Shown here in pieces: positions 11,831 through 30,028 of a stretch of 64,000 nucleotides of DNA. Where the stretch lies: positions 186,001 to 250,000 of the forward strand of contig NC_014831.1 of NCBI RefSeq assembly GCF_000184705.1, read 5' to 3'. Source of the DNA: Thermaerobacter marianensis DSM 12885 (GTDB lineage: Bacteria; Bacillota; Sulfobacillia; Thermaerobacterales; Thermaerobacteraceae). The notes beneath the pieces are model-generated. The model searched no databases and was not told the origin of the DNA. It was given only the letters and a program-made list of their open reading frames with translations. The first letter of the stretch is position 1, and the number at the start of each line of letters is the position of its first letter. The translations under genes were made by a program, and so were the position numbers.

Positions 11831-12844
11831 ATGCTCGGGTTCGTCCGGGACCTGGGGGTCGACCTGGGAACCGTCAACACGGTGGTGTATGTGGAAGGCC
11901 GGGGCATCGTGCTCAACGAGCCGTCGGTGGTGGCCGTCGACCGCGAGACGGGCCACGTCCTGGCCGTGGGTTCGGAAGCCCACCGGATGCTGGGCCGCAC
12001 GCCGGGGAACATCGTGGCGGCGCGTCCCCTGCGGGGCGGGGTCATCGCCGACTTCACGGCCACGGCCACGCTGCTGAAGATGCTGCTCAAGCGGGCCGTT
12101 CCCCAACGGCTGGGCTTGCGGCCCCGGATGGTGGTCTGCGTCCCCTCGGGCGTGACCACCGTCGAGCGGCGGGCCGTCATCGAAGCAGGCTACGAGGCCG
12201 GCGCCCGCAAGGTGTACCTGTTGGAAGAACCGGTGGCGGCCGCCCTGGGGGCGGGCCTCGCCATCCACGAGCCCGGCGGCCACATGGTGGTCGACGTGGG
12301 CGGCGGGACGACGGACATCGCCGTGCTCTCCCTGGGCGGGGTGGTGGTGGCCACCTCCACCCGCACCGGCGGCGACACCTTCGACGAGGCCATCGTCCGC
12401 TATGTCAAGCGGCAGTACAACGTGCTGATCGGTGAGCGCACGGCGGAACAGGCGAAGATCGCCATCGGCACCGCCGTCCCCCCCGAGGGCGACGGGGAGC
12501 GCTTCGAAGTCCGGGGCCGGGACCTGGTCACGGGCCTGCCCCGCACCCTGCACCTCTCCGCCGCCGAGGTGCAGCAGGCCCTGGAAGAACCCCTGGCCGC
12601 GCTCCTGGCCGCCCTGCGCGGCGCCCTGGAGCGGGTGCCACCGGAACTGGCGGCGGACATCCTTCACCGCGGGCTGGTGCTCACCGGCGGCGGCTCGCTG
12701 CTGCGCGGCCTCGACCGGCGCATCGCCGACGCCACCGGCCTGCCCGTGGTGCGGCCGGAGCAGCCGCTCTTGACGGTGGCCCTGGGCACCGGCGTCGCCC
12801 TCAGCCGGCTGGACCGGCTGGACGGGGTCCTCATCGCCGGATGA
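11831..12844 (+). CDS. mbl: MreB/Mbl actin-like cell-shape protein
   Basis: Bacterial actin that guides lateral wall synthesis under the membrane. The 337-residue protein has the actin nucleotide motifs: DLGTVNT near the start, VVDVGGGTTDIAVLSLGG (phosphate 2) and LVLTGGGSLLRGLDRRI (adenosine). ATG 11831 follows AGGAGGGAG. Position after spoIIID matches B. subtilis mbl rather than mreB, which lies with mreC and mreD; the symbol rests on that context because the paralogues are alike. Confidence 0.93.
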   Translation: MLGFVRDLGVDLGTVNTVVYVEGRGIVLNEPSVVAVDRETGHVLAVGSEAHRMLGRTPGNIVAARPLRGGVIADFTATATLLKMLLKRAVPQRLGLRPRMVVCVPSGVTTVERRAVIEAGYEAGARKVYLLEEPVAAALGAGLAIHEPGGHMVVDVGGGTTDIAVLSLGGVVVATSTRTGGDTFDEAIVRYVKRQYNVLIGERTAEQAKIAIGTAVPPEGDGERFEVRGRDLVTGLPRTLHLSAAEVQQALEEPLAALLAALRGALERVPPELAADILHRGLVLTGGGSLLRGLDRRIADATGLPVVRPEQPLLTVALGTGVALSRLDRLDGVLIAG

Positions 12845-12902
12845 GCGGCAGGATCGCCGGGGCTATCGTCGAACCCTCACCGAAACGGGCTGCTTGGACG
12901 AC

Positions 12903-13054
12903 TTCAGGCAGCATGGCGACACGCCGCGAACGGGCAAACCCGCCGAAAGGCGGGGGCGCAAAGCCACGGGTCTACCGCGCGGCGGGAGCGGAAGGCGGCG
13001 ACGGGCAGCCGCCGCGCCTCCGGCCCCGCCGGCTACGACGGCCGGGCTGCCGAA
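12903..13054 (+). promoter_or_regulatory. Cyclic-di-GMP-I (GEMM-I) riboswitch aptamer
   Basis: The conserved core is clear: GGGCAAACC (12932-12940), stem CCCGCC/GGCGGG (12939-12944, 12949-12954) capped by the GAAA tetraloop, and CGCAAAGCC (12957-12965). A GC-rich P3 helix follows (12977-12985 with 13009-13017). The closing P1 helix is GGCAGC (12907-12912) with GCTGCC (13046-13051). Known GEMM-I RNAs bind cyclic di-GMP between these elements. It stands in the leader of two flagellar rod-type genes and is followed by a terminator. Confidence 0.88.
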
Positions 13055-13147
13055 CGGGTGGAGCGATTGGATTGCATCGGGCCGCCAGCCTCCCTGCTCC
13101 TTGCCCTGGGGGCGCTGCGGGCGGGCGGCCGGGTCGAGACCGTCCCC

Positions 13148-13176
13148 ACCCCCGGCAGCGGCCGGGGGTTTCGGTT
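13148..13176 (+). terminator. Riboswitch-controlled terminator before flhO
   Basis: ACCCCCGGC (13148-13156) pairs with GCCGGGGGT (13161-13169) around an AGCG loop, followed by TTCGGTTT. The riboswitch segment GGCCGGGCTGCCG (13040-13052), which includes the 3' strand of P1, can instead pair with CGGCAGCGGCC (13153-13163), leaving a two-base bulge. The two folds exclude each other, so bound ligand should favour termination. Confidence 0.72.
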
Positions 13177-13227
13177 TAGCCAGAGCGGGACGATCCGGGG
13201 CGATCCACCCGAAAGGGGGCAAGGGCC

Positions 13228-13977
13228 GTGCTGCGCGGGCTCTATACCGCCGCCAGCGGAATGCTGGCCCGGGTCCTGCAGCAGGAACGCCTGGCCAACG
13301 ACCTGGCCAACGTCAACACGCCGGGCTACAAGGCCAGCCGGAACGTCACCGAGGCCTTCCCCGAGCTGTTCGTCGCCCGGCTGGAACGCGCGGGTGCGGC
13401 GCCCGTGGGGCCCGTGGGCACCGGCGCGGTGGTCGCCGAGCCCGGTCTCGACCTGACCGCCGGCCCCTGGCTGGAGACGGGCCGGCCCCAGGACCTGGCC
13501 CTGGCGGGGGACGGGTTCTTCGTGGTGATGGGGCCCGCCGGTCCGGCCTACACCCGGGCCGGCAACTTCACGGTAGGGCCGGAAGGCTACCTCCAGACCC
13601 CCGACGGCTGGCCGGTCCTGGGCACCGACGGGCAGCCCCTGCTGGTGGGCACCGCGGACTTCACGGTGACGCCCGACGGCCAGGTGCAGGCCGGGGGGGT
13701 GGTCGTGGGCACGGTGGCCCGCGTGACCTTCGCCAATCCGGCGGCCCTGCGCAAGGCCGGCGACAACCTGCTGGTCGATCCGGGCGGCGCCGGGCCCGCC
13801 GTGCCCGTGGACACGCCGGTTCGGCAGGGGGTCCTGGAGCAGTCCAACGTGGATCCCGTGCGGACCGTGGTGGAGATGCTGGCCAACTTCCGCGCCTTCG
13901 AGGCGTCCCAGCGGGCGGTGCAGGCGCAGGACCAGACCCTGGGCCTGGCCATTCAGGAAGTGGGGCGGGTCACGTGA
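13228..13977 (+). CDS. flhO: Flagellar rod/hook-family protein (FlhO-like)
   Basis: Member of the FlgE/FlgF/FlgG family that builds the rod and hook outside the membrane. The 249-residue protein has the N-terminal block LYTAASGM...LANDLANVNTPGYKASR and the C-terminal block GVLEQSNVDPVRTVVEMLANFRAFEASQRAVQ. GTG start after AAAGGGGGC. It precedes a paralogue with a four-base overlap and follows mbl, which is the B. subtilis order mbl-flhO-flhP. Expression is probably set by the upstream cyclic-di-GMP riboswitch. Confidence 0.9.
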   Translation: MLRGLYTAASGMLARVLQQERLANDLANVNTPGYKASRNVTEAFPELFVARLERAGAAPVGPVGTGAVVAEPGLDLTAGPWLETGRPQDLALAGDGFFVVMGPAGPAYTRAGNFTVGPEGYLQTPDGWPVLGTDGQPLLVGTADFTVTPDGQVQAGGVVVGTVARVTFANPAALRKAGDNLLVDPGGAGPAVPVDTPVRQGVLEQSNVDPVRTVVEMLANFRAFEASQRAVQAQDQTLGLAIQEVGRVT

Positions 13978-14843
13978 TCGGGAGGGCTCTCTGGACGTCG
14001 GCTGCCGGCATGGCGGCGGCCGCGCGGCAGGTGGACGTCACCGCCAACAACCTGGCCAACGTCAACACGCCGGGGTTCAAGGCATCCCGGGCCGACTTCG
14101 CCGACCTGGTCTACGCCGCCCTCGCCGTCCCGGCATCACCCGCCACGGCGGCCGCGGGCGGGGTGCAGGCGGGCCACGGCGTGCGCCTGGCGGCCACCCC
14201 TCGCTCCTGGCGCCAGGGGCCGCTCCAGTCCACGGGCTCGCCGTGGGACCTGGCCATCGACGGGGCCGGCTTCTTCCAGGTGGTCGAACCGGGCACCGGC
14301 GAGGTGCTGCTGACGCGGGGCGGCGCCTTCGTCCTGAGCCCGCTGCCCGGCGGCGCGCCGGGGGCGGGACCCGGCGAGGATCCCGGCCAGGGTCCCGGTG
14401 GCGGGCCAGGGGGAGCCGGGGAGGCCCTGCTGGTCACCGACGGCGCCGGCCGGCCTCTCCTGCGGGACGACGGCCGGCCCCTGGTCCTCCCCGCCGGTGC
14501 GCGCAGTTGGGTGGTGACGCCTGAGGGCGAGGTGCGGGCGGTGCTGGCCGGTGGCCGGGAGGTCCCGGCGGGGCGGCTCGCCCTGGTGGTCCCGGCCGCG
14601 CCGGACGCCCTGGAGAGCCGGGGCGAGGGGCTGTATGCTCCCGGTCCCGGGGCGGTGGCGGCCCTCCCGCCGGGGCAGGGCGGCGCCGGCCGCGTCCGCC
14701 AGGGGATGCTGGAGCAGGCCAACGTGGATCTGGCCGTGGAGATGACCCGGCTGCTGGCGGCCCAGCGGGCGTACCAGCTCAACGCCCGGGCCGTGCTGAC
14801 GGGCGACGAGATGATGGGGCTCATCAACCGCCTGCGGCCGTAA
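13974..14843 (+). CDS. flhP: Flagellar rod/hook-family protein (FlhP-like)
   Basis: Paralogue of the gene before it, 289 residues. It starts VIGRALWTSAAGMAAAARQVDVTANNLANVNTPGFKASRADF and ends with QGMLEQANVDLAVEMTRLLAAQRAYQLNARAV, the usual FlgG-family ends. The middle has a Gly/Pro-rich insertion (about residues 120-145). The GTG start overlaps the previous stop (GTGA), so translation is coupled. A long open frame extends upstream to 12894 across the riboswitch, but it is not coding. Confidence 0.9.
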   Translation: MIGRALWTSAAGMAAAARQVDVTANNLANVNTPGFKASRADFADLVYAALAVPASPATAAAGGVQAGHGVRLAATPRSWRQGPLQSTGSPWDLAIDGAGFFQVVEPGTGEVLLTRGGAFVLSPLPGGAPGAGPGEDPGQGPGGGPGGAGEALLVTDGAGRPLLRDDGRPLVLPAGARSWVVTPEGEVRAVLAGGREVPAGRLALVVPAAPDALESRGEGLYAPGPGAVAALPPGQGGAGRVRQGMLEQANVDLAVEMTRLLAAQRAYQLNARAVLTGDEMMGLINRLRP

Positions 14844-27812: not shown

Positions 27813-28313
27813 ATGGGGCATGACGCGCTTTGGTGGGCCCTGGCCCTGCTCGCCGCGGCAGGGGCCGCGGGCATCGTGGGCGAGATGCGGGCATCGTGGC
27901 GGCGGAGACGCCGGAGCCGCCGGAGCCGGCGCGGCGAGCCGAGCTGGGGCCCCTGGCCGCTGGTCGTCCTGGTCCGGGACGCGGCGTCCTTCATCGAGGG
28001 GTTCGTGGACGACCTGGCCGCCCTGGCGCCGGGCTCGCCCATCGTGGTGGTCGACTGCGGGTCCGCCGACGAGACGGCGTCCATCCTGCAGCGGTTGCGG
28101 CAGCGGGTCCCCACCCTGCAGGTGCTGCGCTGGCCGGCGGCCCGCCCGGGAGCCCCCGGTCCGCTGGAAGCCGCCCTGTTCGTCACGGGCGCGCCCCTGG
28201 CGCTGACCATCGATCTGACGAACCCCGCCGGCTGGCGGTGGCAGGATTTGCGGCCGCCGCTCCTCCACCTGCTCGAAGCGTTCGGATCTTGCAGGAAAAG
28301 CATGACAGGCTGA
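27813..28313 (+). CDS. Membrane-anchored, truncated GT2-like protein
   Basis: A 166-residue protein with an N-terminal membrane anchor (DALWWALALLAAAGAAGIVG) followed by a strongly basic run. After it comes a Rossmann-like segment, IVVVDCGSADETASILQRL, which resembles the first nucleotide-sugar-binding half of family 2 glycosyltransferases. The DxD and acceptor-binding half are missing, so transferase activity is doubtful. Start ATG 27813 was preferred to 27759 because the anchor then begins the protein. It is two bases before the cyclase gene, so the two are likely co-translated and may work together. Confidence 0.6.
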   Translation: MGHDALWWALALLAAAGAAGIVGEMRASWRRRRRSRRSRRGEPSWGPWPLVVLVRDAASFIEGFVDDLAALAPGSPIVVVDCGSADETASILQRLRQRVPTLQVLRWPAARPGAPGPLEAALFVTGAPLALTIDLTNPAGWRWQDLRPPLLHLLEAFGSCRKSMTG

Positions 28314-28315
28314 GA

Positions 28316-30028
28316 ATGTTACAAGGACGCGACACGGGGTGGGGGGCACGAGGGCCCGTGAAGTCATGGTGTAGCCCGCAGCGGCTGTACATCCTTCTGG
28401 TCGGCGTCGGTGGGATCGTCGCGCTCGGCATGGCCCTGCCGCAGTGGGAGCCCGTGCCCGTCCTGCCCATGGCCCTGATGCTGGGGGCGGCCATCCTCAT
28501 GGACGCCTACCCGCTGCCCATGCCGGGCGGCGGGGCCATGTCGCTGACCTTCGGCGTCACCCTGACCGCCCAATTGCTGTACGGCACGCTGCCGGCCGCC
28601 CTGGTCAACGTCCTCGGCAACGTGATCGGCTACGGCCTGTTGAACCGCCGGCCGTGGGATCGCACCCTGTTCAACGCCGGCCAGTTCGCGCTGACCATCC
28701 TGACGGCAGGCGCCGTGGCGACACGGATGGGCCTCCGCCCGTTGCCGGCCTCCACCGGGATCAGCGTCCCGCCGCTGGACCTGGTCTTCATCTATGTGGG
28801 CGTCTACTGGGTGATGAACAACGCCCTGGTGGGGGTTGCCCTCTACTTCCACCAGGCCCACTCGATCCGCGAGTTCCTCCGCGTGTTCTTTCGCTGGCTG
28901 CCCGTGGACGGGCTGAGCACGGCCATCGCGGTGGCGGCCCACGCCGTGGTGATGATCGCCTACCAGAGTTACGGCGTGACGGGCATGGCCGCCGGGCTCA
29001 CCCTGTTCCTCATGGTCAACTACCTCCTGCGGCTGCACATGCGGCTCGTGGAGGCGCACCACGATCTGCAGTCCCTGTACGAGATCACCAAGGGCCTGGC
29101 GGGCGTGCTGGAGCTGGCCGACGCCTTCCGCTGGATCGCCCGGGCGGTGCATCAGCTGGCCCCCGCCGACGCCTTCGCCGTCTACCTGGCGGAAGACGAG
29201 GACGTTCTGCGGGTGCAGTATGCCGCCCACCCCGACGCGGCCGCGATCCGCGGCCGGGTCGCCGGGGACGGGGCCGTGCGGCTTGCCGCCTCCAGCCGCC
29301 AGGTCGTCGAGCAGGTGGAGGAGCTTAGCCTGGTGACGGAGAGCTTCCGGCCCACCCGCGTGCTCGCGGTCCCCCTGTCGGCCGACGAGCGGCTGGTGGG
29401 CTGCCTGTGCCTGGCCCGGCGCGGCCGGGGCTTCGGCGACCGGGAGCGGCGGCTGCTGTCCATCCTCTCGTCCCCCATGGCCCTGGCCATCCAGACCGGC
29501 CTGATCTACGGGCGAACCCAGACCATGGCCCATACCGATCCCATGACGGGCCTCTACAACTACCGCTACTTCAGCATGCGGCTGCGGGAAGCGGTGCGGC
29601 GGGCCAGCGCCTCCGGCCAGCCGCTGGCGCTGATCCTCATCGACCTCGACGAGTTCTCCGATATCAATAACCAGTTCGGCCACCCGGCCGGCGACGAGGT
29701 GCTCCGGCAGTTCGCCCAGGTCCTGCGCAGCTCCGTCCGCCAGCAGGACATCGTGGCGCGGTATGCCGGGGACGAGTTCGTGGCCATCCTGCCCGGCGCC
29801 CGCCGGGAAGAGGCCGAGGCCGTGGCCGAGCGCATCCGCGAGGCGGTGCTGCGCCACCGCTTCACCGATCCCACCGGCCAGATCGTCTTCCCCTTGCGCT
29901 GCAGTCTGGGCGTTGCCGTCTATCCCTTCGACGGTGTCTCCGACGAAGACCTCATCGCCGCCGCCGACCGCAACATGTTCCGCCAGAAGCGCCACCACTT
30001 CGAGCGATACCGCCGGGAGCGCGCCTGA
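28316..30028 (+). CDS. Membrane diguanylate cyclase (sensor-GAF-GGDEF)
   Basis: Makes the second messenger cyclic di-GMP from two GTP. The 570-residue protein has about six membrane helices (20-240), a GAF-like segment (about 255-395) and a GGDEF domain (about 405-565). The active-site signature is AGDEF (484-488), one residue off the consensus but with metal and catalytic residues kept. The inhibitory site RQQD (475-478) sits five residues before it, so product feedback is likely. The membrane part resembles that of the HD-GYP protein at 39583. ATG 28316 lies two bases after the previous stop. Confidence 0.9.
   Translation: MLQGRDTGWGARGPVKSWCSPQRLYILLVGVGGIVALGMALPQWEPVPVLPMALMLGAAILMDAYPLPMPGGGAMSLTFGVTLTAQLLYGTLPAALVNVLGNVIGYGLLNRRPWDRTLFNAGQFALTILTAGAVATRMGLRPLPASTGISVPPLDLVFIYVGVYWVMNNALVGVALYFHQAHSIREFLRVFFRWLPVDGLSTAIAVAAHAVVMIAYQSYGVTGMAAGLTLFLMVNYLLRLHMRLVEAHHDLQSLYEITKGLAGVLELADAFRWIARAVHQLAPADAFAVYLAEDEDVLRVQYAAHPDAAAIRGRVAGDGAVRLAASSRQVVEQVEELSLVTESFRPTRVLAVPLSADERLVGCLCLARRGRGFGDRERRLLSILSSPMALAIQTGLIYGRTQTMAHTDPMTGLYNYRYFSMRLREAVRRASASGQPLALILIDLDEFSDINNQFGHPAGDEVLRQFAQVLRSSVRQQDIVARYAGDEFVAILPGARREEAEAVAERIREAVLRHRFTDPTGQIVFPLRCSLGVAVYPFDGVSDEDLIAAADRNMFRQKRHHFERYRRERA

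Follow-up and report, generated by a model that had tools for sequence, protein, structure and literature searches.

The window analyzed here, a stretch of 64,000 nucleotides from the genome of Thermaerobacter marianensis DSM 12885 (a single contig of 2,844,696 bases), has a G+C content of about 73%. The leader elements and the genes flanking them lie on its forward strand. A cyclic di-GMP class I (c-di-GMP-I) aptamer sits between a gene of the MreB/Mbl family (positions 11831 to 12844; PF06723, 448 bits) and an flhO-like flagellar rod/hook gene (13228 to 13977; PF00460, PF22692, and PF06429), the gene putatively regulated; a second, flhP-like flagellar rod gene follows in the operon (14118 to 14843, start approximate; PF06429 and PF22692). 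The GTG start of flhO is preceded by a Shine-Dalgarno-like AAGGGGG (13213 to 13219). A scan of positions 12700 to 13300 for sigma-70 promoters recognized none, and a tblastn search of phage records with FlhO returned distant matches only. A gene for a GGDEF (diguanylate cyclase-type) protein is located about 14.6 kb downstream of the riboswitch (27830 to 30028), and the entire genome has just one other GGDEF match. The species has been described as non-motile, yet flagellar genes are annotated in its genome (PMC3035304).

Aptamer and terminator in the flhO leader

The covariance model RF01051 (c-di-GMP-I, GEMM-I) matched the aptamer core at 12923 to 13054 with 39.1 bits, above its curated gathering score of 35. 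With P1 included, the complete class I aptamer spans positions 12920 to 13060, upstream of flhO-flhP. When the aptamer was held during folding, the 5′ strand of P1, CAC(G)CCG-CG (12920 to 12928; conserved in all four genus members), paired with CG-AA-CGGGUG (13051 to 13060), that is, with 13051 to 13052 and 13055 to 13060. In the RF01051 alignment, P2 (12934 to 12959) is capped by a GAAA tetraloop at 12945 to 12948, and P3 (12962 to 13048) retains the conserved receptor flanks GUCUA and GCUACGA and carries a 52-nucleotide apical insert (approximately 12977 to 13028) that forms an extended stem. Residues that we take to be the pocket positions G20, A47, and C92 are present at 12933, 12960, and 13050, a set that presumably marks an aptamer of the c-di-GMP rather than the cGAMP type. 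Judged by its sequence, the leader carries a standard c-di-GMP-I riboswitch aptamer, and ligand binding is predicted.

The P3 insert measures 52 (window), 85, 177, and 180 nucleotides across the four genus members, and its basal part pairs in each. Inserts of such variable length (52 to 180 nucleotides) cause standard covariance models to misplace or truncate the 3′ half of the aptamer, both in the window and in its relatives (L138, L139, and L140). RF03167 (c-di-GMP-I-GGC) was the match with the best E value in a short scan, but it was rejected with 34.8 bits against a gathering score of 59 and a misplaced 3′ half. A palindrome within the P3 insert of two of the relatives (G001 and G002), considered as a genome repeat, had no full-match copy elsewhere.

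Downstream of the aptamer, an intrinsic terminator stem-loop, CCCCCGGC-AGCG-GCCGGGGG, was identified at 13149 to 13168 from the sequence and a terminator scan. Its 8-bp stem is perfect and is followed by an interrupted U tract, TTTCGGTTT (13169 to 13177), with a predicted 3′ end at approximately 13171 to 13178; it is the sole terminator-like site between 12700 and 13300. The three other species of the genus keep this terminator as CCCCCGG...CCGGGGG followed by a T-rich tract. Aptamer, switching strand (see below), and terminator are each retained in all four species, while the intervening sequence diverges.

Switching strand and predicted folds

The 3′ strand of the aptamer has a second potential partner. 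This switching strand, GCUGCCGAACGGGUGG (13046 to 13061; identical in four of four genus members), can serve either as the 3′ strand of P3 and P1 or as the 5′ arm of an antiterminator whose 3′ arm, CCACCCCCGGCAGC (13146 to 13159), overlaps the 5′ arm and loop of the terminator. According to folds and duplex energies, the best antiterminator joins GCUGCCG (13046 to 13052) to CGGCAGC (13153 to 13159) and GGGUGG (13056 to 13061) to CCACCC (13146 to 13151), giving 13 bp interrupted by an AAC × C internal loop at −27.6 kcal/mol. Because seven of the eight bases in the P1 3′ strand (all except C13055) are also antiterminator bases, P1 and the antiterminator are mutually exclusive; P1 and the terminator are compatible.

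The initial annotation had proposed that GGCCGGGCTGCCG (13040 to 13052) overlaps the P1 3′ strand and pairs, with a two-base bulge, with CGGCAGCGGCC (13153 to 13163), taken to be the terminator 5′ side. Both sequences, their coordinates, and the bulged complementarity proved exact. Overlap with P1 is confined to 13051 to 13052, however: 13042 to 13048 belong to the 3′ strand of P3, 13049 to 13050 are junction residues that include the ligand-contacting C, and the remainder of P1 lies at 13055 to 13060. Likewise, CGGCAGCGGCC does contain the upper 5′ arm of the terminator but continues through the loop and partway into the 3′ arm. The proposed pairing stands for 13046 to 13052 with 13153 to 13159, but it missed the second block (13056 to 13061 with 13146 to 13151). 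Its other half, GGCC with GGCC, is a weaker alternative that competes with other local folds, and we rejected it as the best antiterminator half. The central proposal, that the P1 3′ strand doubles as an antiterminator arm, is supported by the folds and duplex energies, and folding with and without the aptamer held agreed that the folds exclude each other and that the terminator becomes free to form once the aptamer is held (P = 1.0).

In the free leader ending at 13160, the probability of the 7-bp antiterminator core was 1.0 at 37°C and 0.89 at 65°C. When the leader was extended to 13178, structures with terminator and antiterminator were nearly equal in energy (−160.3 and −160.4 kcal/mol, respectively), and holding the aptamer in this longer leader brought the terminator probability to 1.0 (37°C) or 0.99 (65°C). 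Within the folding model, near-equal stability combined with early antiterminator formation is what a kinetic OFF switch would require. At the growth optimum of 75°C, where nearest-neighbor parameters are unreliable, the free full-length leader favored the terminator (P ≈ 0.75); read-through at this temperature would therefore depend on kinetics. The aptamer itself costs 6 to 10 kcal/mol relative to other folds in silico, because the G+C-rich insert misfolds in a model that includes neither tertiary contacts nor ligand. In three of the four genus members (window, G001, and G002), the unheld fold forms the antiterminator as transcription passes the terminator 5′ side. The predicted free fold of G003 lacks it because the switching strand is engaged at another place, even though the duplex considered alone is strong there.

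Own-terminator matching across the bacterial class

In a single sequence, the pairing of the terminator 5′ side to the aptamer strand was equaled by 22 of 18,252 other 20-mers of the window, and when pairing was sought anywhere in the shuffled downstream stretch, P was 0.05. Complementarity in one sequence alone is for these reasons modest evidence at 73% G+C; the comparative tests make it convincing. We assembled 29 nonredundant c-di-GMP-I leaders of the bacterial class, each with a recognizable terminator. Since p-values for individual leaders were mixed across the class, a matched-pair test was used, in which the 18-nucleotide aptamer strand of each leader was paired with its own and with the other leaders' terminator 5′ sides, energies were summed, and partners were permuted. 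Own partners gave a summed energy of −479.1, compared to −426.0 ± 13.2 for permuted partners (n = 29; P = 5 × 10⁻⁵, or 2 × 10⁻⁴ with fewer permutations), and the result persisted when the leader from the window was left out (P = 9 × 10⁻⁴). Reversed terminator sequences served as a control (P = 0.16), and all 60 shuffled sets fell short of the real value. Because own-terminator matching was significant and the controls were not, these sequences indicate that strand exchange is maintained by selection across the class. The exchange between aptamer strand and terminator is general in c-di-GMP-I leaders of this bacterial class according to the matched-pair test.

Among 76 flhO loci of the class that were scanned, the aptamer was found upstream of flhO in at least 31, a lower bound given that some scanned loci were short. 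In two flhO leaders (L048 and L174, from G082 and G114), the terminator was not found and a hairpin covers the Shine-Dalgarno sequence instead, which suggests that these two genomes have exchanged transcriptional for translational control.

Direction of switching and known systems

Sequence and computation together give an aptamer, a terminator, and a 3′ aptamer strand (13046 to 13061) with two exclusive partners. The leader is probably a transcription-terminating c-di-GMP class I riboswitch that turns flhO-flhP off, where we infer the direction of switching. With c-di-GMP bound, P1 and P3 would retain the switching strand, the terminator would form, and transcription would end near 13171 to 13178. 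With ligand absent, the strand would capture the emerging 13146 to 13159 before the 3′ arm of the terminator exists, and the polymerase would read through the resulting antiterminator into flhO. The anatomy resembles that of Cd1 (Cdi-1-3), which precedes flgB in Clostridioides difficile and acts as an OFF switch of transcription; its antiterminator consists of the aptamer 3′ strand paired with the terminator side (PMC9262584, PMC6366702). Both leaders combine a class I aptamer, a flagellar operon, an intrinsic terminator, and a 3′ aptamer strand complementary to the 5′ side of the terminator; the T. marianensis leader differs in having flhO-flhP downstream, a long P3 insert, a linker of approximately 85 nucleotides, and a thermophilic, G+C-rich RNA. 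The mechanism is probably transcriptional OFF, as in Cd1. The OFF switch anticipated by the initial annotation is a direct prediction of the exclusive folds and matches Cd1. We count the two GGDEF proteins of the genome as further support. Counted against it are the interrupted U tract and the lack of a recognized promoter in 12700 to 13300, and caution comes from Bacillus thuringiensis, where the class I riboswitch Bc1 is unresponsive in vitro and in vivo (PMC11218506) and another class I riboswitch is an on switch (PMC6366702).

The complementarity could instead be a coincidence of G+C-rich sequence, with a real aptamer followed by a plain terminator or attenuator at 13149 to 13168, for instance one that ends the mbl transcript. 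A G+C content of about 73%, equally good pairing in 5% of shuffled downstream sequences, and the differing predicted fold of G003 are all in keeping with this explanation, but complementarity exactly at the terminator position is rare (about 0.1%), and own terminators are matched across 29 riboswitches; we regard coincidence as unlikely. It is far less probable that the ligand prevents termination. GEMM-I aptamers are in use in both directions (PMC9262584), and the pilM GEMM-I riboswitch of Geobacter metallireducens, which shares the aptamer fold and the transcriptional mode with the flhO leader, is an ON switch, albeit one that senses cGAMP. The pilM terminator, however, incorporates the aptamer strand, whereas in the flhO leader the two elements occupy separate sequence and can form together (terminator P = 0.99 to 1.0 with the aptamer held, leader to 13178). 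Concealment of the flhO ribosome-binding site by the switch is just as improbable: relatives G082 and G114 offer a precedent in their Shine-Dalgarno hairpins, but the Shine-Dalgarno sequence of the window lies about 45 nucleotides past the terminator, outside the switching helices.

The transcriptional OFF design is already known from C. difficile and its mechanism is textbook; as far as we found, the T. marianensis riboswitch has no earlier description in the literature. The switch is defined precisely enough to be tested, and it occurs in a thermophile described as non-motile whose flagellar genes are nevertheless sufficiently intact for annotation. A second c-di-GMP-I aptamer of the same genome lies upstream of flgB (G000:C1:1187425-1187517; L001), with its own terminator and with orthologues in G002, G003, and G004. 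It shares with the flhO leader the aptamer class, a terminator, and a rod gene downstream, and differs in its normal-length P3 and its terminator sequence. We speculate, with considerable doubt, that the flgB and flhO-flhP riboswitches are both c-di-GMP OFF switches that silence rod genes under laboratory conditions, and that the long variable P3 insert helps to set the switch at 75°C. If so, silencing of rod genes by the two riboswitches would explain the reported lack of motility despite the presence of flagellar genes.
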